Positions 53,642 through 64,000 of a DNA stretch of 64,000 bases are shown piece after piece. Source of the DNA: Prochlorococcus sp. AG-402-I20. Its GTDB lineage: Bacteria; Cyanobacteriota; Cyanobacteriia; PCC-6307; Cyanobiaceae. The notes under the pieces were generated by a model that was not told where the DNA came from, made no database searches, and saw nothing but the letters and a program-made list of their open reading frames with translations. The position numbers and the translations under genes are program-made. Location of the stretch: positions 96,908-160,907 of the forward strand of contig QCHY01000003.1 of assembly GCA_003216975.1 (NCBI GenBank), in the 5' to 3' direction. Numbering within the stretch: position 1 is the first letter of the stretch; every line of letters begins with the position of its first letter.

Positions 53642-55228
53642 ATGACTTCAATGATTTCAGAGGACAAACGTAATCCAGCAATCGTAATTCTCGATTTTGG
53701 TTCTCAATATTCAGAACTAATTGCTCGAAGGATTAGAGAGACAGAGGTTTACTCATTAGTGATGAGTTACACAACCTCTGCGGAACAATTACGTTCTCTT
53801 AAGCCTAAAGGGATTATTTTAAGCGGAGGACCTGGATCTGTTTATGAAGAAGGTGCTCCATATTGTGACCCAGAAATTTTTAAGTTAGGGGTTCCTGTAC
53901 TGGGTGTTTGTTATGGAATGCAATTAATGGTTCATCAGCTAGGAGGATCAGTAAAACCTGCAACTGGAAAAGCTGAATATGGAAAGGCTCCTTTAGAAGT
54001 TGATGATCCAACAGCGTTGTTAACTAATGTTATGACAGGATCAACAATGTGGATGAGTCACGGGGATTCAGTTCAAGAATTACCCAAGGGATTCGTTAGA
54101 TTAGCTCATACTTCAAATACTTTAGAAGCAGCTATTGCTTTGCATGATAAGAGATTTTATGGAGTGCAATTTCATCCGGAAGTTGTTCACTCTACTCAGG
54201 GGATGGTTTTAATAAGAAATTTTGTATACCATATCTGTTCATGTGAGCCTGATTGGACAACAAACTTATTCATAGATGAAGCTGTTTCTCAAGTACAGCA
54301 ACAAGTAGGTGATAAAAAAGTTTTATTGGCTCTATCTGGTGGTGTTGATTCATCAACTCTTGCATTTTTATTAAATAAAGCAATAGGACCTCAATTGACG
54401 TGCATGTTTATTGATCAAGGTTTTATGAGAAAAGGTGAGCCAGAATTTTTAATGTCTTTTTTTGATGAAAAGTTCAAAATTAATGTTGAATATATAAATG
54501 CTAGAGAACGATTTATTTCAGCATTAAAAGGAGTAACTGATCCTGAGCAAAAGCGTAAAATTATAGGTAGAGAATTTATTAGGGTTTTTGAAGAGGAGAG
54601 TCTTCGTTTGGGACCATTTGATTACTTGGCTCAAGGCACGCTTTATCCTGATGTCATAGAAAGTTCAGGAACAAATATTGATCCGAAAACTGGTGAAAGA
54701 ATAGCGGTTAAAATTAAAAGTCATCATAATGTAGGAGGGTTACCAAAAGATTTACAATTTAAATTGGTAGAACCTTTGAGACGTTTATTTAAAGATGAAG
54801 TTAGAAAAGTTGGAAAATCACTGGGATTGCCAGATGAGATTGTACGAAGACATCCATTTCCAGGTCCAGGATTGGCAATAAGAATTTTAGGAGAGGTTAC
54901 TCATGAGAAACTAAATTGTTTAAGGGATGCAGATTTAATTGTGCGAGAGGAAGTTAACAATGCTAAATTGTATAACACGATTTGGCAGGCTTTCGCTGTC
55001 TTGTTGCCTGTATATTCAGTCGGTGTAATGGGAGATCAAAGAACCTATGCGTGGCCAATTGTTGTTCGTTGTGTTTCAAGTGAAGATGGAATGACCGCCG
55101 ATTGGTCTCGTCTACCGTATGAAGTGTTAGAGAAAATTTCCAATAGAATAGTTAACGAAGTTAAGGGAGTTAATAGAGTTGTCTTGGATATAACAAGTAA
55201 ACCTCCAGGCACCATTGAATGGGAATAG
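53642..55228 (+). CDS. guaA: GMP synthase (glutamine-hydrolyzing)
   Basis: [43 protein letters not shown]; ends [13 protein letters not shown]. Confidence 0.97.
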
Positions 55229-55267: not shown

Positions 55268-55347
55268 GTTCCCCGTAAGTTCCCCGTGGGAATGACGTGA
55301 CGAAGTGACAAGGGTTTTGAGCAGTAAGTTCCCCGTAAGTTCCCCGT
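55268..55347. repeat. Left-end paired iterons: four GTTCCCCGT copies
   Basis: Copies at 55268-55276, 55279-55287, 55328-55336 and 55339-55347. Each pair has an 11-bp start-to-start period; the pairs are 60 bp apart. Confidence 0.95.
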
Positions 55348-55392
55348 GTCACTTAGTCACCTTCTCTGTGGAGACATCGTAGATAGTTCATT

Positions 55393-55428
55393 TTCTCTAC
55401 ACCTCAACCGTAGAGAACTTGTAGAGAA
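55393..55428. repeat. TTCTCTAC / GTAGAGAA inverted and direct repeats
   Basis: TTCTCTAC 55393-55400 is the inverse of GTAGAGAA 55410-55417, which is repeated directly at 55421-55428 (11-bp period). Confidence 0.85.
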
Positions 55429-55572
55429 AACGTATTAGACAACTATTTTATCTTGACTACTTGAATGAGGTTATTGCAAACCACCTTTTGATTCTTTCTA
55501 CTAAAAATTGTCTAAAGAGGTTCTCTCTGCACTTGAAGTAAAATGAATGGATGAGGATTACTTGATTCTTAC

Positions 55573-55956
55573 ATGAAGAAACGAACTACTGTTATTGGTA
55601 CTTTGATGTCATTGCTGTCTTTCGGACAACCTCTGCTAATTGGAACTGGCACTGTTTTAACGAGTGCTGCCGTGATGCTTTCTGTTCCTGAAAGGGTATG
55701 GGCAGAAAAAGCAGATGTCTATTTGCGGCGTGGGAGCAGTAAATCTCGCCGAAAGGATTATCACGGAGCAATAATTGAATACTCTAAAGCAATTGATATT
55801 GGAGGTGAATTATTACCAGAAGTATATGTGACACGTGGAATTGCGAAGAAAAATATAGGAGATATAGGGGGCGCTTGTTCTGATTTTAAAGAAGGAATCT
55901 CTCTTGGATATTCCGGGGGATTTGTACGTCATTGGATAAGAACTTTGTGTGATTAA
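55573..55956 (+). CDS. Exported TPR/Sel1-like small protein
   Basis: Hydrophobic N-terminal segment, then ADVYLRRGSSKSRRKDYHGAIIEYSKAIDIGGELLPEVYVTRGIAKKNIGDIGGACSDFKEGISLG. Confidence 0.75.
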   Translation: MKKRTTVIGTLMSLLSFGQPLLIGTGTVLTSAAVMLSVPERVWAEKADVYLRRGSSKSRRKDYHGAIIEYSKAIDIGGELLPEVYVTRGIAKKNIGDIGGACSDFKEGISLGYSGGFVRHWIRTLCD

Positions 55957-56003
55957 GTAAGATCGATTTAGGTTGTATTTATGAATGATCGACTTGCTTT
56001 CTC

Positions 56004-56762
56004 ATGAATAGGTTTCGGCGAAAACTTAATAACCAAATCACTAATCAGAGTGAAGGAAGCGGAACGTCGTTATTCAATAAGTTCAGTGGACTTGCTATCG
56101 CGATTTCAATTTTATTAGCGGTACTTGAGACTGAGAGTCATATTGAAATTCATTTTGGTGAGTTAATCCGAAAGATAGATTTGATAATTGGATCATTCTT
56201 TTGTATTGAGTATGTCTGTCGTTTATGGGTTTCTCCTCTGCAGCATCGTTATGGAAGAGGAATAAAGGGTGTTGTGAGATATATGTTTTCTCCTTTAGCA
56301 CTTATTGATGCAATAGCGATATTTCCAACATTCATAGGTGTTCTTGGTTCTCAGTTCTATATTTTGAGAGTTATTCGTCTGTTGAGAATTGCAAAAGTTG
56401 GACGTTCTAGAAGATTTCAGCAAAGTATTTCTCATTTTAACTTTGCAATAAGTTCTAAAAGGCAGGAATTGCAATTAGCAGCGATTTATACAGGACTCTT
56501 ATTGCTTGTTAGTAGCACTTTGATGTATTTGGTTGAATCTAATGTTCAACCTGAATTATTTGGTTCAATTCCTAGGTGTATTTGGTGGGCGATTAATACT
56601 GTCACAACAGTTGGATATGGAGATACGGTGCCAATTAGTTCTTTAGGAAAAATCTTTGCTTCGATCACTGCATTGCTTGGAATCGGTGTTATCGCAGTTC
56701 CAACTGGAATTATTGCTGCAGGATTTAGTGAATCTATTTCAAAGAGTAGGCAAAAATATTAG
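56004..56762 (+). CDS. Voltage-gated-type potassium channel
   Basis: Selectivity filter TVTTVGYGDTVP; S4-like ILRVIRLLRIAKVGRSRRFQ; multiple TM segments. Confidence 0.9.
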   Translation: MNRFRRKLNNQITNQSEGSGTSLFNKFSGLAIAISILLAVLETESHIEIHFGELIRKIDLIIGSFFCIEYVCRLWVSPLQHRYGRGIKGVVRYMFSPLALIDAIAIFPTFIGVLGSQFYILRVIRLLRIAKVGRSRRFQQSISHFNFAISSKRQELQLAAIYTGLLLLVSSTLMYLVESNVQPELFGSIPRCIWWAINTVTTVGYGDTVPISSLGKIFASITALLGIGVIAVPTGIIAAGFSESISKSRQKY

Positions 56763-56771
56763 GCATAGAAT

Positions 56772-57905
56772 TTAAATGAGGTCTTGGAATTTATTTAACT
56801 GAGATACAAAATTCTCTGCTAATTCTGCATTGCTAAACATATATTTTTCATAAATCCCTGTGTTGGACCTCAGTGTTATTTCTCCGTAACGCATAACAGG
56901 TATTTGTCTATTGTCTGAAAATCTTTTATCTCTACTACCATCTTTATTTGTTTTCTCCCATACCTCGCCTACTTGTTCAGAATCATTTGGAATTGATTCA
57001 GTCTCTAAGAAATTAGATACTTCAAAACTCGCTTCTACATTGGTTATTTCAAGAATTCCAAAATTTTCAGGATTGTTATACATAACAACAAAACCTGGAT
57101 ATAGATATATATCTGCTCCGTTTATATTTGAGAAACAGAGTGCATTATATGAAGATGTAATTCCTGGTAATTTATCTTGCCTTAAGGATGCTCTTTCTCT
57201 TTCAAGCGTGGAAGATGCTGCAGAACGAGTTCTCACTTGATCAACATCAGTCGCTGAAGTTATATCCCAAACATAGTTAGATTTGCCAAGTTCTTGGAAT
57301 GAAGGGATTAATTCTTCGAATGCATTTCTTGCTTCTTCCTCCATTTCTAATTCTAGTTCAACTTCAGATTGGTTAATTCCTTGTTTGACTTCTTCGGTTG
57401 CCTTCTGCATCGAAGCAAGATTGCTATTGAGTTTTCTTTTAATAAACGGGAGCAAATAATATAACAGTGTTAGTTGAGATATCAGTTTCAATAATTGAGT
57501 AGTGAATATTGACGTTTTAATTTCAGTTAAGTCTTTCTTTAATTGAATTTTCTGCTTATTCGCTGCAAGCACTGCTTCTTGTAGTGCCATAAGACCATCT
57601 GAAGTTATATCTAAAGGATCTTCACTGACAAATACCTCATCAGGTTGAGAAATTTGTTCTTCGTATTCCTGAGGATGAACACGTTTTTCTGATGGATTAT
57701 CGAGAATAGAATTTTTTCCGCCCCCTATTTTTCTTCTTGAATAAATACCTGTTCCAGGAATTCCAACGTTTGCATAGGTTCCTCCTTTGCCACCAAGAGT
57801 GATAGAAGCACCTCTAACTCCAATGGATGCGGTAACACCGCTTTTGCTTAGATTGAGTCGAACACCTGGAATAACTCTTATTCGTCTTCTAAATAACCAA
57901 GACAA
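56772..57905 (-). CDS. DUF4236 domain-containing protein
   Basis: N-terminus MSWLFRRRIRVIPGVRLNLSKSGVTASIGVRGASITLGGKGGTYANVGIPGTGIYSRRKIG matches the DUF4236 signature, followed by coiled-coil and C-terminal regions. Confidence 0.85.
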   Translation of the reverse strand: MSWLFRRRIRVIPGVRLNLSKSGVTASIGVRGASITLGGKGGTYANVGIPGTGIYSRRKIGGGKNSILDNPSEKRVHPQEYEEQISQPDEVFVSEDPLDITSDGLMALQEAVLAANKQKIQLKKDLTEIKTSIFTTQLLKLISQLTLLYYLLPFIKRKLNSNLASMQKATEEVKQGINQSEVELELEMEEEARNAFEELIPSFQELGKSNYVWDITSATDVDQVRTRSAASSTLERERASLRQDKLPGITSSYNALCFSNINGADIYLYPGFVVMYNNPENFGILEITNVEASFEVSNFLETESIPNDSEQVGEVWEKTNKDGSRDKRFSDNRQIPVMRYGEITLRSNTGIYEKYMFSNAELAENFVSQLNKFQDLI

Positions 57906-58103
57906 TGTTTAATATGCATTTTATGCACCTTAAAGAGATCCTCTGATCAGGGGATCAAAAATAAAGCGATCACATAGAAACTTGTAACAGGAAAGTATCT
58001 ATTGAACTTTTTGAAACAAATGGTTTCATCTCTTTTTTGATACATTCTTCGAGCAAGAAGTCCTATAAGAACTAGCATTTATATATTAGTTACCAATAAA
58101 TGC

Positions 58104-58343
58104 ATGAATGGTTTTCTTGCTGCAGCAACAATTGCAAATCCTGTAATTGCTTCAGTACTTACTATTTTGTTTTATCTAGAGCGAAAAAAATTAGATGAAC
58201 GATCAAAGCAACTTCAAAATTCTATTACTACTTGCTCTGAATCTGTAGCAACAGAAGTACAGACTTTATCCACTCAAATTAATGCCAATACTCAATCTTT
58301 AAATGAAGTTAAAGACACACTTAAAGAGGTTGTAAATATTTAA
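58104..58343 (+). CDS. Small TM plus coiled-coil hypothetical protein, first gene of helicase operon
   Basis: 79 aa: hydrophobic N-terminus (AAATIANPVIASVLTILFYL) followed by a predicted coiled coil. Stop is 4 nt before the next start. Confidence 0.6.
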   Translation: MNGFLAAATIANPVIASVLTILFYLERKKLDERSKQLQNSITTCSESVATEVQTLSTQINANTQSLNEVKDTLKEVVNI

Positions 58344-58347
58344 AGAT

Positions 58348-59112
58348 ATGCAAGAGGATTTAAGTACAAGATATCTTCTCTACTTACGTGATATGAGTAG
58401 GCAAATTATTTTTAGTACATCTAGTGGTGCCGGTAATTATTCACAAGTACTTATACAAGGAAGGAAAAAAAATAAGGATGAGAGGTTTTCAAGGATTACT
58501 GACTATTCACTTTCAAAGATCGAATTAAAAGGTTCCGAAGCATATAGAGCAGATATTAATCTTGCTGCTAAAGGATTTGGATTATTTTGTGCCTTAGGAA
58601 TCCTGTGTGGAACTTATATTCCAAAGAATAAGAAAAATAGTTTGAGACTTTTAGCAGCACCAATTATTTATGGCAGATTGCTGTTTGAGGAAGAAGGTGA
58701 TTGCGATATTAGTGAGTGGATAGTTAACTATGATCTTGCTACTTGTCTGTATTCTGAACAAACAGATGAATCAGAGGAGATGGACTATCTCTTCAATGAT
58801 GAAAAAGTTTCAGGGTCAAACACGATCCGAGAAATTGAATCGTTTCTGGAACACAAATCTAAAAATGATTTACAAAATATTCTCAAACAAGGCGATATAT
58901 TTGTAGACGATTTTTCAAAAGTTGCTGAGATACCATTTGTTGTTTGCAAGACACCACTTGAGGCAGCACAATCTGCAATTGAGGCAAGAGATAATGGTCA
59001 AAAAATGCTTTATTATTGTCCAGGTGATTGGGTCTTTAATGCACCTGTTCCTGATGGATTGAATACTTATACAGCATTAGATGAGATTGCTAAAGAATTA
59101 CAGGAGGTATAA
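58348..59112 (+). CDS. Helicase-associated hypothetical protein (possible detached N-terminal region of the helicase)
   Basis: 254 aa ORF in the same frame as the downstream helicase, separated by TAA-CTA-ATG. Codirectional. Confidence 0.75.
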   Translation: MQEDLSTRYLLYLRDMSRQIIFSTSSGAGNYSQVLIQGRKKNKDERFSRITDYSLSKIELKGSEAYRADINLAAKGFGLFCALGILCGTYIPKNKKNSLRLLAAPIIYGRLLFEEEGDCDISEWIVNYDLATCLYSEQTDESEEMDYLFNDEKVSGSNTIREIESFLEHKSKNDLQNILKQGDIFVDDFSKVAEIPFVVCKTPLEAAQSAIEARDNGQKMLYYCPGDWVFNAPVPDGLNTYTALDEIAKELQEV

Positions 59113-59115
59113 CTA

Positions 59116-61659
59116 ATGTCAACACTTAATAGGTTACTAGAATCTGTTTTTGAAGGTAGAAGATTTGAACATAAACATACACCTTTATCAAATGATGATA
59201 TTGAAAAGGCAATTAAAGAAATACCATTTACGTTGTCTGCTGCCCAGAAGAGTAGTGTTTTTCAGGCATTAAATAATGATATTACTTATATACAAGGACC
59301 ACCAGGGACAGGTAAGTCTTATACGATTTCAGCACTCGCAATACTTGCTTCTAAATTAGGTTTGAAGACATTAGTCGCTTCGCAAAAAAAACCTGCTGTA
59401 GAGATTGTTTATTCCAAAGTTTCTGAACTTATAGGAGAAGAAGGTTGTCTATTCCTGTCTGATAACCCAGAAAGAAAAGAATCTACAAAAGATCTCCTTC
59501 AATCAATTTTAAGTTGGACTACTAGTAGTCAACTCACAAGAAATAAACAAATCTATCGCCAACAAGATACTGAAGTTCAAGACTTAATAAAAGAGAGAGA
59601 TCGTTATGCTGAAAGGATTAAAGACTATCAACAAGACATTAAACAGTTTTTTGAATCTAATGAGACAATTCAGAGATTGCAAAAGAATTTATTAGATACT
59701 TTGGGTTTACCAGAACAGGTCTTACGTAAAGTAAAAAGGTTAGAAAATAATGAGATTAGGGATAAATTAATTGAGTACATTGATGAATGTAGACGTCTAC
59801 GTAAAAAGTCATTTGATAATGATGGAAGACTAGGTTTTGCAAATAAGATGAGATTGAATTTATTAGTAACGACAATTCTAAAAAATTTAGAACTTGATAT
59901 TGATGTATATAAAAAGTATCAAGAAGAAATTTTAGAGCAAATTGTCCGATATTCAAGAGAAGCAAGAAAAAGTATTAGCAGGCAAAATCTAATTAGGAAT
60001 CATCCGATTGATAGTTTACGTGTTTCTTTAAATGACATTACTAATCAGTTATACCCCCAATCAAATACATCAACTAGTTTGTTATCAAAGAGACTTAAGT
60101 TAAAGACAAAAATCAAGATAGAGGAACTTTTAGAAGATCGTTCATATGTAAATACTTTGAGCGATTTTAAAAGGAGATTGCATTGGAGGACTGCAAGGAA
60201 AGTAAAGGAATGGAATAGAAAAATTAATTTTGAGAAATTATTTGAGATCTTTCCCATCGTGCTTGGTGAGATAAGAACACTTCACCCTTTCTTACCTTTT
60301 AAAGAAGAACTCTTTGATCTAGTGATTGTTGATGAAGCATCACAAGTCAATTTGGCAGAGATTATTCCGATTCTTTTTCGTGCAAAGCGTTTTTGTATTG
60401 TTGGTGATCATAAGCAACTTGGTATAAAAGCAGGAGGGGTGATTTTTTTGAATAAAGTTCTAGAAAGACTTGTTTGGCAGAAAAGATTTGATGATTTACA
60501 TAAAATTAATTTGTCTCCTACCGCTGCTAAAGAAAGAGATCTTCTCGTCTCAACCTCATCAATATTGGATCTGATTAGAAATGAAAATAACGATATAACC
60601 TCAGTACCTGTTGTTTTAAATGAGCATTTTCGTTCAATGCCTATGCTCGCAGAATTTACTAATAATGAATTTTATAAATCAGGTAGTGAGCATAGCGGTT
60701 TGAAAATCATGACTGCTTTACCTCAAAATAAATGTCTAAATTCATTCATGGATATCCCAGTCAAAACGAAAAGAGAGAATACAGAAAATGTGAACACTGG
60801 TGAAGTGAAGAAAGTCGTTTCTTTAATTAAGTCCATAGCAGCACAAAAACCGATTGCAGAAACTAAAGAACTTTTCTCTCTTCCTCCTCTGACAGGAAAA
60901 GTAATAACAGTAGGGGTTGTCTCTTTTATGCGTGATCAAGTTAAAAAGATTGATGAGGAAATCTCATCAACGATTTCTTCTGATCAGTTAGAGAAAATTG
61001 ATTTTATGGTTGGAACGCCAGAAGACTTTCAAGGAAATGAAAGAGATGTAATGGTCATTGCACCTGGTGTAGATGAGGATTGCTCTCGGTCCAGAGCATT
61101 TATGGAGAATGAAAATAGATTTAATGTTGCCAGTAGCAGAGCAAAGTTCTACACATACTTTGTTCATGGCGAATTACCCTCAAATATGATGAGGATGAAA
61201 GGAATGTTGAGTCATATGGGGATCGAGAATGAAGAGACAAGCGGACAAGTTGAATTCACTCCTATAGGTTGGGACTTCTCTAGATCAGATTGCGATTCAG
61301 ATTTTGAACATCTTGTTGCCGATAATATTGAGGACTTCATTGAAAACGAGGCACCTAACAAATTGATGCTTTTTAATCAAGTGAATTCATGTGGTTATTT
61401 TCTCGACTTCGTTGTTTATGACAAACAAACTAAAAAGTCACTAGCAATTGAGGTGGATGGCAAGCATCATTTTTTCTCTGATGGCAGTACTCATACAGAT
61501 GAACACTTAGAGCGAATAATGACTCTTAGACGTGCAGGATGGGATACACATCATCTTGATTATTGGAATTGGTTCCAAGACGGATGGATAGAAAAAGATT
61601 CACCTGCTGTCGAAGGACTAAAAGAAAAACTTAGAACATATTTTCTATATCCTCGCTAA
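59116..61659 (+). CDS. SF1 (UPF1/DNA2-like) helicase with C-terminal PD-(D/E)XK/Vsr-like nuclease domain
   Basis: Walker A GPPGTGKS; motif II VIVDEAS; GDHKQL; NEHFRSMP; GTPEDFQGNERDVMVI; NVASSRAK; C-terminal FLDFVVYDKQTKKSLAIEVDGKHHF...HLERIMTLRRAGWDTHHLDYWNW nuclease-like block. AGGAGG 8 nt upstream of ATG. Confidence 0.9.
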   Translation: MSTLNRLLESVFEGRRFEHKHTPLSNDDIEKAIKEIPFTLSAAQKSSVFQALNNDITYIQGPPGTGKSYTISALAILASKLGLKTLVASQKKPAVEIVYSKVSELIGEEGCLFLSDNPERKESTKDLLQSILSWTTSSQLTRNKQIYRQQDTEVQDLIKERDRYAERIKDYQQDIKQFFESNETIQRLQKNLLDTLGLPEQVLRKVKRLENNEIRDKLIEYIDECRRLRKKSFDNDGRLGFANKMRLNLLVTTILKNLELDIDVYKKYQEEILEQIVRYSREARKSISRQNLIRNHPIDSLRVSLNDITNQLYPQSNTSTSLLSKRLKLKTKIKIEELLEDRSYVNTLSDFKRRLHWRTARKVKEWNRKINFEKLFEIFPIVLGEIRTLHPFLPFKEELFDLVIVDEASQVNLAEIIPILFRAKRFCIVGDHKQLGIKAGGVIFLNKVLERLVWQKRFDDLHKINLSPTAAKERDLLVSTSSILDLIRNENNDITSVPVVLNEHFRSMPMLAEFTNNEFYKSGSEHSGLKIMTALPQNKCLNSFMDIPVKTKRENTENVNTGEVKKVVSLIKSIAAQKPIAETKELFSLPPLTGKVITVGVVSFMRDQVKKIDEEISSTISSDQLEKIDFMVGTPEDFQGNERDVMVIAPGVDEDCSRSRAFMENENRFNVASSRAKFYTYFVHGELPSNMMRMKGMLSHMGIENEETSGQVEFTPIGWDFSRSDCDSDFEHLVADNIEDFIENEAPNKLMLFNQVNSCGYFLDFVVYDKQTKKSLAIEVDGKHHFFSDGSTHTDEHLERIMTLRRAGWDTHHLDYWNWFQDGWIEKDSPAVEGLKEKLRTYFLYPR

Positions 61660-61684: not shown

Positions 61685-61704
61685 GTTCCCCGTATGTTCC
61701 CCGT
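61685..61704. repeat. Right-end paired iteron: two GTTCCCCGT copies
   Basis: 61685-61693 and 61696-61704, 11-bp period, same motif and spacing as the left-end pairs. Confidence 0.95.
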
Positions 61705-61763: not shown

Positions 61764-61784
61764 GGAACTATTGAGTGGGAGTAG
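61764..61784 (+). pseudogene. Displaced guaA 3' end remnant (GTIEWE-stop)
   Basis: gga act att gag tgg gag tag encodes the same six terminal residues and stop as guaA, with four third-position differences. Confidence 0.8.
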
Positions 61785-61823
61785 CGGAAACGTCTACTTT
61801 CCAGTGATAACTTGATTTATATG

Positions 61824-61893
61824 GTTTCACGTGAGAAGAATGACGTTGATATGACTAGGGTTTTGATGGGTTGGTTTCACGTAGGTTTCACGT
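61824..61893. repeat. Diverged iteron module: three GTTTCACGT copies
   Basis: 61824-61832, 61874-61882 and 61885-61893; the last two have an 11-bp period. Arrangement is collinear with the left-end module of element 1. Confidence 0.92.
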
Positions 61894-61916
61894 GGCACAC
61901 TTTTACCGTCTCCATG

Positions 61917-61997
61917 GAGAAATCGTAAAAAGTCGTTTTTCTCTACACTCGTGGTTTTTTGATGGACCAGTTTCCAACAATCTTTTTACGATTTCTC
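61917..61997. repeat. 16-bp perfect inverted repeat GAGAAATCGTAAAAAG / CTTTTTACGATTTCTC
   Basis: Arms 61917-61932 and 61982-61997, 49-nt spacer. Confidence 0.93.
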
Positions 61998-62020
61998 TAC
62001 GCAATGAGAAATTCTTCGTA

Positions 62021-62320
62021 TCAAAAAAGTTCATTTTTTTCTATTACTAAATCGACTAATTGTTTTTTATTGAGTTTGGAAATTTTGTCTATGCCAACCA
62101 GCAGTGCCCTCAATTCGCTATTGGTCTTTTGCATCAGTACCGATTTCTGATCAACAAATATTCCTTTCTTTAGGATGGAAAGAAGAGTTGAGAAGGCATC
62201 AAAAATTGCCATTGAAGCGATGATGCAAAACATCATCACAGAATCAGCAGTGGTAGTTAAATTCATTGGTTTTGAGGAAATAATTTTTGGTTTGTTAGGC
62301 AACTTCTGGACTCCATCCAT
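62021..62320 (-). CDS. Hypothetical protein
   Basis: 99 aa ORF with a hydrophobic middle and a C-terminal KLNKKQLVDLVIEK helix. No clear SD; overlaps the upstream ORF. Confidence 0.4.
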   Translation of the reverse strand: MDGVQKLPNKPKIISSKPMNLTTTADSVMMFCIIASMAIFDAFSTLLSILKKGIFVDQKSVLMQKTNSELRALLVGIDKISKLNKKQLVDLVIEKNELF

Positions 62321-62579
62321 TTTGTAAGACCCTCTTCTTTTGCCAGTTCAGGCAATGCTTTGTGAGATGTTCACCTTGAGGGATAAGACGTTGGTGAAGT
62401 GGATAAGTCAAAAGCGTGACGCATGACTTATCGCACGTGTAAGTGAAGTGATCACACGTAAGACAAACAGAACTTCCTCTGGACTTCACCATTTCCAGAC
62501 CAGTGAAATAACTCCACTCTTCTGGATTCTCTAGTGCTTCAACTGGAGCAACAACTTTTGGTGTTTTAATTCGACCCAT
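62295..62579 (-). CDS. Small Cys-rich (possible zinc-binding) protein
   Basis: MGRIKTP start preceded by AAGGAG; CLTCDHFTYTCDKSC...LIPQGEHLTKHC pattern. Confidence 0.6.
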   Translation of the reverse strand: MGRIKTPKVVAPVEALENPEEWSYFTGLEMVKSRGSSVCLTCDHFTYTCDKSCVTLLTYPLHQRLIPQGEHLTKHCLNWQKKRVLQNGWSPEVA

Positions 62580-62604
62580 CTTGGTTCTCCTTGTGAGAAG
62601 AGGC

Positions 62605-62638
62605 AAAAAAAGCACGATGCTTACTTCGTGCTTTTTTT
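62605..62638. terminator. Bidirectional-type hairpin terminator
   Basis: AAAAAAAGCACGA ... TCGTGCTTTTTT, 12-bp stem (62606-62617 / 62626-62637) flanked by A and T tracts. Confidence 0.8.
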
Positions 62639-62721
62639 GGCGGTTTAGTGATGGGGATAATGCTAATACAAATGTACTATATTTGTCTATTAGGTCAAGT
62701 TACTTATTTTTTCCATTAAAG

Positions 62722-62750
62722 AAGGGAGCGAGACTTTGGTCGCTCCCTTT
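62722..62750 (+). terminator. Rho-independent-type hairpin
   Basis: AAGGGAGCGA 62722-62731 / TCGCTCCCTT 62740-62749, 8-nt loop. Confidence 0.7.
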
Positions 62751-62818
62751 GAGTCAAGCACTCAACTGACTGAACTAAATTTCCATCCTTTATTTAACTT
62801 TGACCCACAGAAGGTGCT

Positions 62819-63067
62819 GTGACTCCTAATTCATTAATAACAAATCCAGATCAGGTGAACATGAGAAAAAACTCCTGTTTAACCAACCACCCAATAATCT
62901 TTGTGTTTTCTGAGAATGAGTTTGAGAAGATCGAGAATCATCCTTTGTACCTCAATATTTCAACTGAAAGTAATAAGGAACAAGGTGTGGAAGTGTTCCA
63001 AGTGAGATTAAAAGGACAGAAAACCAAAGAAAGATCGATGAAAGAGTATTCGACCCATTGGATCTGA
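62819..63067 (+). CDS. Hypothetical protein
   Basis: 82 aa ORF from GTG, internal ATG at 62861. No recognised family. Confidence 0.35.
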   Translation: MTPNSLITNPDQVNMRKNSCLTNHPIIFVFSENEFEKIENHPLYLNISTESNKEQGVEVFQVRLKGQKTKERSMKEYSTHWI

Positions 63068-63115
63068 AACTACGTGTTGCTTGCATAATTAGATCTGTTG
63101 TTAGTTCAATGTTTT

Positions 63116-63301
63116 TTAGTAGTCCATTGAGCAGTTGCCAAACTGCAAACATTCATTCTCGTAATCGACCTCATCAAAATCAGTTTCATAATTCGAAACC
63201 AGATCGCACCAATCGTTCCCTTGCATAGGAACTCCACAAGATTTCGAGAATGTTTCCTTTACGTCTTCGATTGCATGTTTAAAAGGATTGCCGCATGACA
63301 T
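63116..63301 (-). CDS. Small acidic Cys-containing hypothetical protein
   Basis: 61 aa ORF with a strong SD (AGGAGGTCAAACC-ATG on the minus strand). Confidence 0.55.
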   Translation of the reverse strand: MSCGNPFKHAIEDVKETFSKSCGVPMQGNDWCDLVSNYETDFDEVDYENECLQFGNCSMDY

Positions 63302-63322
63302 GGTTTGACCTCCTAATAGTGC

Positions 63323-63595
63323 CTTGATTTATATCTACTCCTCCTAATCCAAAAAATCTATAGGACAAAAACCCTAAAGTATTAACTCTGATTACCGCAC
63401 AAAGAAAGACCCCTGAAACTAATCAGGGGTTTGGGTTGTTCCGACCATTGCAGAGACCGCACGAAAGGTGACTCTGTTCACATCAGGAGGTGTTAGATGC
63501 CTCCTTAGAGTCAATGCATATTTTCCCTTTTTAATATCTTCGAGAGTGCGATGACTCTTGATTTATCTCTACTCCAACTAATAAAAAATATCTAT
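63323..63595. repeat. Diverged direct repeat (33/39 identical)
   Basis: CTTGATTTATATCTACTCCTCCTAATCCAAAAAATCTAT at 63323-63361 versus CTTGATTTATCTCTACTCCAACTAATAAAAAATATCTAT at 63557-63595. Confidence 0.85.
63409..63430 (+). terminator. Hairpin followed by T-rich stretch
   Basis: ACCCCTGA 63409-63416 / TCAGGGGT 63423-63430. Confidence 0.6.
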
Positions 63596-63713
63596 GCAGA
63601 GAACCCAAATATAGAAATACTTTGGTGTTCTTACCCATAGCAATTTCCATTCAGTAGTAGTAAAACAGTCTCAGGAGTCAACGCACTTCCTTAGGTCTGG
63701 AGTGATGGACCCA

Positions 63714-63741
63714 AAGGGGGCGACCAAAATCTCGCCCCCTT
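63714..63741. terminator. GC-rich hairpin
   Basis: AAGGGGGCGA 63714-63723 / TCGCCCCCTT 63732-63741. Confidence 0.6.
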
Positions 63742-63761
63742 ACTACTTTTGAGGTATATCT

Positions 63762-63932
63762 ATGACCAGAAAAAGAGACAAGATCTGGACAGCAATTATT
63801 GCAACTAAGCAATGGTTCACCAAACTTTTTACAAGTGAGGCAGATGCTTTAGTTGATAACTTCGGAAATAATCCACCACCAGAGATAGGACCTCAATCTT
63901 ATTCAGGAGATATTCACGATAAAGGAGACTGA
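63762..63932 (+). CDS. Small hypothetical protein (56 aa, below the supplied ORF-track length)
   Basis: MTRKRDKIWTAIIATKQWFTKLFTSEADALVDNFGNNPPPEIGPQSYSGDIHDKGD*, with GAGG upstream of ATG. Confidence 0.45.
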   Translation: MTRKRDKIWTAIIATKQWFTKLFTSEADALVDNFGNNPPPEIGPQSYSGDIHDKGD

Positions 63933-64000
63933 TTTCATTCATTTCAATTGCATTAAGAAAGGGACCCTGCTGCTTCAGCGACCTTGAGTCCCTCTCTTCA

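Follow-up and report, generated by a model that had tools for sequence, protein, structure and literature searches.

The window, i.e., the whole stretch of 64,000 nucleotides from Prochlorococcus sp. AG-402-I20 that was analyzed, corresponds to C3:96908-160907 of a 43-contig genome (92% complete), and contig C3 stops where the window stops (160907). It contains guaA on the forward strand (53642..55228), which encodes GMP synthase (Pfam GATase, 2.9e-46; GMP_synt_C, 1.4e-45) and represents the integration target. The 3' end of guaA forms an attachment core (55208..55228, +; GGCACCATTGAATGGGAATAG), the first among repeated cores, and is followed on the same strand by two left arm pairs of element 1 (55268..55287 and 55328..55347, both GTTCCCCGTAAGTTCCCCGT) and by a distal palindromic block (55362..55440, +; TCTCTGTGGAGA..TTTTCTCTACA..TGTAGAGAAAA). 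The cargo of element 1 (55573..61659, no single strand assigned) comprises a 127 aa TPR-like protein (weak match), an ion channel, a DUF4236 protein, a 254 aa protein of unknown function, and an 847 aa helicase-nuclease, while an integrase is absent from this interval. The helicase-nuclease (59116-61659) matches AAA_11/12 and MTES_1575 and partially matches the defence proteins MkoA (1.4e-39), PDC-S37, and ProA; the 254 aa protein (58348-59112) is encoded before it, and it is possible that the two together represent anti-phage cargo. Element 1 ends with a right arm pair (61685..61704, +; GTTCCCCGTATGTTCCCCGT).

Downstream of this pair, a second core (61764..61784, +; GGAACTATTGAGTGGGAGTAG), which is a displaced guaA 3' end with a copy of GTIEWE*, marks the junction between the right end of element 1 and the left end of element 2. 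The latter consists of a first arm pair of which a single word remains (61824..61832, +; GTTTCACGT), a second arm pair (61874..61893, +; GTTTCACGTAGGTTTCACGT), and a distal palindromic block (61908..62003, +; TCTCCATGGAGA..TTTTCTCTACA..GATTTCTCTACG), followed by a body with several small open reading frames of unknown function (62004..64000, no single strand assigned). The named blocks of both modules, given with their positions in the initial annotation, were each recovered where they had been placed: AATGACGT at 55291 in module 1 and 61839 in module 2, GGGTTTTGA at 55312 and 61858, TGGAGA-N-ATCGTA at 55369 and 61915, and CTCTACAC at 55395 and 61941. The near-identical spacing that had been claimed for them holds from GGGTTTTGA onward, where it is the same, while small indels are present upstream of GGGTTTTGA. 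Within the window, the iteron GTTTCACGT is restricted to positions 61824, 61874, and 61885 (chance mean 0.15), and GTTCCCCGT to 55268, 55279, 55328, 55339, 61685, and 61696 (chance mean 0.05). The alignment of the two modules after the stop codon scored 143 (z = 12.4), while sequences with shuffled dinucleotides scored 66.9 +/- 6.1. In many relatives, both words of the first arm pair are present, of which module 2 retains one of two.

For a comparison within the genus, the DNA downstream of guaA was taken from 36 relatives. Nearly every relative with a readable guaA 3' end carries the same kind of module after guaA, most of them have a head-to-tail run of cassettes there, and the last codons of guaA (GTIEWE*) are repeated downstream in up to several copies; in one relative (G011), only a partial left module was found. 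Left and right ends were each modeled as profiles based on the guaA 3'-end copies in relatives, and these profiles revealed a junction order of right end, guaA 3'-end copy (core), and left end, with 170 left-end matches on the guaA strand and 0 on the opposite strand. The island was delimited in six complete genomes, where guaA and a PBP2-like gene enclose 10 to 51 kb with 4 to 11 detected junctions, counting the one at guaA. As a general pattern in complete genomes, iteron pairs are confined to this interval and to the guaA strand, and a reversed iteron-pair pattern used as a control gave zero matches in them; in draft genomes, some pairs were found on other contigs, which is consistent with contig breaks. 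Cassettes have a median length of 2.5 kb and reach up to 97% identity between strains. The dyad was matched by a two-word regular expression in 52/171 modules, an expression that is too strict to be informative.

With regard to cargo, the most common family in the arrays of 33 genomes is a TPR family (131 ORFs) with many copies per array (e.g., L010:4169-5377), and the member that was scanned has a TylF/Methyltransf_24-like C-terminus. In one genome (G001:C1:36768-55672), guaA and the PBP2-like gene at the other island boundary are on opposite strands, which suggests an inversion.

Such a regular occurrence after readable guaA genes would also be compatible with a conserved 3' untranslated or terminator region of guaA that was duplicated without involvement of a mobile element, an outcome that would have overturned the initial annotation. 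However, the module is absent after guaA, with unrelated sequence in its place, in the MED4-like genome G154, in other Prochlorococcus genomes (G078, G076, G059, G075, G051, and G052), and in Synechococcus G146 and G123, and therefore it is not a 3'UTR. Since differing module types within one genome, intact copies adjoining an integrase, and the existence of an empty site speak against it as well, we consider this explanation as good as refuted. Modules were also found in other genera (G049, G055, G043, G091, G141, G062, and G068).

The empty site was identified by a comparison with G225, whose right junction, from the core on, aligns with the sequence downstream of guaA in its congener G146 (344/421), while the left junction does not align to that sequence. 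For the right ends of G293 and G289, the corresponding alignments were less clear. This comparison was used in place of a per-window boundary check on shared cassettes, which was blurred by indels. A minimal element of 139 bp was observed after guaA in a high-light-type Prochlorococcus (G128, L228:377-540); it has two cores and one GTTTTACGT pair and is devoid of cargo.

The arm words themselves follow the cassettes. The two left arm pairs match each other at 8/9 bases or more in 98% of cases, and left and right words of the same cassette do so in 74%, compared to 28% for all pairings; the observed mean agreement was reached by 0/2000 permutations, in which cassettes were taken as independent despite the kinship of strains. 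Across a junction, i.e., between different cassettes, agreement drops to 18%. It should be noted that a simple rule based on tandem matches was used to identify the arms, leaving a few wrong entries in the word table. Thus, the iteron word is a property of the cassette and not of the junction. Left and right words agree in 87% of first cassettes and in 66% of later ones, and cores are less exact the farther they lie from guaA (p = 0.0002, permutation within genomes). The outward decay of the core and the association of the word with the cassette are both predicted by insertion at guaA with outward displacement of older cassettes. With a total of 174 junctions, with arms concordant within cassettes and not across junctions, and with the empty site of a relative, the proposal that two guaA-targeting elements are stacked in the window is supported.

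The suggestion that element 2 runs beyond the window was borne out by a third guaA remnant on contig C26 (G000:C26:1203). In four relatives (G004, G006, G024, and G033), homologues of the window end and of the start of C26 lie approximately 360 bp apart; therefore, C26 is very likely the continuation of the window's array, as inferred from synteny. Element 2 would accordingly extend past the window by these approximately 360 bp plus 1.2 kb (approximately 1.6 kb) to the third core. While a remnant was thus found at the expected far end, the accompanying pair did not match the prediction: the right end carries a GTTCCACGTGAGTTCCACGT pair at C26:1124, i.e., GTTCCACGT and not GTTTCACGT. Element 2 is a mosaic with GTTTCACGT left arms and GTTCCACGT right arms, and since these differ, its left end has been exchanged. 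Furthermore, approximately ten strains share the body of element 2 (61985 onward) at 93-96% identity while having different left arms, namely GTTCCCCGT, CACTTCCACACC, CACTTCCACGTG, or GTTCCACGTG. Homologous recombination has clearly reshuffled cassette ends.

This raises the question of whether RecA-type homologous recombination between repeated ends is the main route by which the cassettes spread, with site-specific integration being ancient and already over in the genus. The occurrence of the same cargo behind different left arms, the disagreement between left and right ends, both in element 2 and in roughly one cassette out of four, the near identity of some cassettes between strains, and the fact that no intact integrase of the guaA type was found in arrays of this genus are all in line with such a scenario. 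It is opposed by the intact integrase-bearing copies in other Prochlorococcus and Synechococcus, which take the first place beside guaA, and by the matched arms of most first cassettes. We therefore keep it as a serious possibility, albeit not the one that we favor. Our preferred interpretation, which we hold with considerable though not complete confidence, is that the feature represents the left attachment end of another cassette lacking an integrase, the second in a guaA-anchored tandem array that has grown by site-specific accretion.

Neither of the window elements encodes an integrase, a point that was not raised in the initial annotation, and integrases were found in relatives. In the guaA islands of the window's genus, no PF00589 gene and no intact guaA-type integrase at guaA was found, and six of its genomes contain integrase remnants. 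An 85 aa ORF fragment after a left end in G027 resembles an integrase N-terminus. An integrase behind guaA that is interrupted by one stop codon was detected in G095, and its C-terminal part was used to search 400 genomes of the family. This revealed full-length homologues with reading frames of 463-518 aa in nine genomes besides the query's own; further searches added G521, G513, G493, and G518 as well as a truncated integrase in G251. All intact tyrosine integrases (13/13), from other Prochlorococcus and Synechococcus genomes, are located directly after guaA and the same module, and these integrase-bearing copies occupy the first position, adjoining guaA. In G312, an integrase element is followed by integrase-less cassettes, although this does not demonstrate movement. 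The Pfam scan of the cyanobacterial integrases returned PF00589 and weak DUF6538/SAM-like matches, and the sequences contain catalytic motifs, among them YxLRH and the region of the terminal tyrosine. Without an alignment, AlphaFold gave a pLDDT of 34.5, so that no claim about the fold is made, and no sequence match was found in the PDB. Some intact elements measure 7 to 9 kb up to the right end, and representative ones also encode an HUH Rep (PF23343, 2.9e-7), an unknown protein of approximately 330 aa, and a resolvase-like gene (PF00239). Outside the cyanobacteria, the alphaproteobacterium SAR116 bacterium AG-335-B03 (L137) has a distant integrase (24% identity, 9e-15) close to a guaA-type core.

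The arms seen with the integrases behind guaA are ACTACCCCGTG, GTTTGTTGCGG, GTTTCACACG, GTTTCACCC, GTTTCACGT, GTTTCCCGT, GTCTCACCC, and ATCACACAC. Among these, GTTTCACGT, the word of element 2 in the window, forms the arms of the integrase elements of G293 and G289, while no integrase was found for the GTTCCCCGT type in the searched samples of the family, which do not cover it as a whole. For 11 non-redundant integrases, arm-word similarity correlated with the identity of the integrase N-termini (Mantel r 0.65, p 0.0004), also with the catalytic part held constant (partial r 0.54, p 0.002). This supports the idea of co-diverging recombinase-binding motifs, although binding of the arm words by the integrase N-terminus is inferred from a correlation in 11 sequences only, without binding data. 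Alternatively, the paired words could serve the HUH replication protein as iterons or a regulator as operators, considering that intact elements also encode a Rep and that the arrangement of direct repeats close to a dyad is reminiscent of origins and operators. However, the words occur at both ends, at a near-fixed distance from the recombination core and in the layout of integrase arms, they track the integrase N-terminus beyond the catalytic part, and the Rep gene is one to several kilobases away, which renders this alternative improbable.

In intact elements, the equivalent of the distal palindromic block of element 1 sits between the arms and the integrase start, with its palindromic TCTCTACAGAGA / TTTCTCTACA words just upstream of the integrase gene. 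These words are retained in integrase-less cassettes (55362-55440 and 61908-62003 in the window), and they may have a role in recombination or serve as a homology patch for arm exchange.

Other sources of a recombinase were considered as well. A tyrosine recombinase of approximately 390 aa (e.g., L054:6069-7226 (-); G000:C8:66342-67499), possibly Xer-like, is conserved and usually single-copy in 126/131 picocyanobacterial genomes. That this core enzyme acts on the cassettes in trans could be proposed based on its presence in almost every genome, including those with arrays. Yet it is equally present in genomes without modules, which led us to reject it as the recombinase; moreover, it is 88-94% identical within the genus across genomes with many different arm words and thus cannot explain them, and dedicated integrases exist at guaA. 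We rate its involvement as very improbable. PF00589 integrase loci elsewhere in the genus (L039-L059) were likewise dismissed, as they have no iterons or modules, and no core apart from one chance-like word. Viral scans for the core, GTTTTACGT pairs, and the dyad returned nothing, and searches against phage DNA gave no match; fourteen viral contigs with GTTCCMCGT pairs lack the module, consistent with chance. Among 50,697 phage records, only one distant relative of the integrase was found (24.5% identity), and none in viral contigs. The close relatives in phage collections that would be expected of a prophage or phage satellite were thus not found.

Under the favored site-specific accretion, parent elements would have had a tyrosine integrase gene immediately after the left end, as their intact relatives do. 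This integrase is inferred to insert a circular form of the element at the final codons of guaA by recombination, with its N-terminal domain presumably reading the paired, 11-bp-spaced arm words and with the core CTATTGAGTGGGA being common to all. Each insertion would restore guaA and displace the older left end, which then lies farther downstream and is preceded by a duplicate of the guaA tail. Array members in the window's genus have lost the integrase while keeping both ends; their excision is an inference, as is their movement, either in trans or alongside an element that carries an integrase. Arm words diverged alongside the integrase N-terminus, and left ends were also exchanged between cassettes. 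Since an intact integrase at guaA was not found in the genus and none was found for GTTCCCCGT, current mobility in the window's genus remains unproven.

Both the target and the mode of growth have precedents. Tandem accretion with decayed cis-mobilizable elements (CIMEs) is established for ICEs and IMEs (PMC5704250), where incoming elements use the regenerated site and therefore stack in tandem. Like CIMEs, the window cassettes are decayed, have lost integration and transfer genes, and lie in tandem at a gene 3' end; they retain attL-/attR-like ends together with a copied 3' end of the target gene, and they lack their own integrase while deriving from integrase-bearing relatives. In contrast to CIMEs, there are up to about ten cassettes per array and many arm-word types per genus, and left arms are exchanged. 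No conjugation gene was noticed in the cassettes, without a specific search. The guaA 3' ends with the core GAGTGGGA are established integration sites, for example, of ICERspD18B and GIsul2 (PMC7775301, PMC9376610), and the elements described here share the target, this core at the guaA 3' end (compared with PMC7775301), and a tyrosine integrase with GIsul2, ICERspD18B, ATE-1, and an IncP island. However, while guaA-island integrases have been described as often being of the P4 type, with AlpA (PMC7775301), the Pfam scan revealed no P4-type N-terminal domain in the cyanobacterial ones, and their elements additionally encode an HUH Rep and a resolvase-like protein of the serine type. Tycheposons, which adjoin tRNA genes (PMC10872708), are likewise integrative elements that carry cargo and tyrosine recombinases and occur in the same hosts, but the site here is guaA, no tRNA gene is present in the window, and the tyrosine recombinase is missing from the window elements and present only in intact relatives.

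Similar to integron cassette arrays, those behind guaA are unidirectional, consist mostly of integrase-less cassettes, and apparently grow by insertion at one end. They differ from them in their ends, which are long modules with double arms that surround a core derived from a gene, and no integron integrase was detected (TIGR02249, 19.2 bits compared to a cut-off of 265). It is conceivable, and we propose this only tentatively, that they constitute an integron-like cassette system with exchangeable recombinase addresses, in which arm swaps at the shared core and dyad turn cassettes into substrates for the integrase subtype that enters, based on a specificity code between arm word and integrase N-terminus. 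In the open literature on Prochlorococcus, guaA, and integrases, no report of these cyanobacterial islands was apparent from titles and abstracts, with many subscription papers being outside this scope. While guaA targeting and tandem accretion are already known, the cyanobacterial family, its scale, and the arm code look new.

The array represents a large and variable Prochlorococcus island with a readable growth rule, i.e., insertion at guaA and decay outward, and with a cargo that is dominated by TPR-containing proteins and includes a defence-like helicase-nuclease. Since the same cargo occurs with different arms across strains, the retargeting of non-autonomous elements becomes testable. 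Furthermore, the intact relatives provide a natural series of matched pairs of integrases and arm sites, with about eight words, by which arm-site recognition by tyrosine integrases is directly testable.
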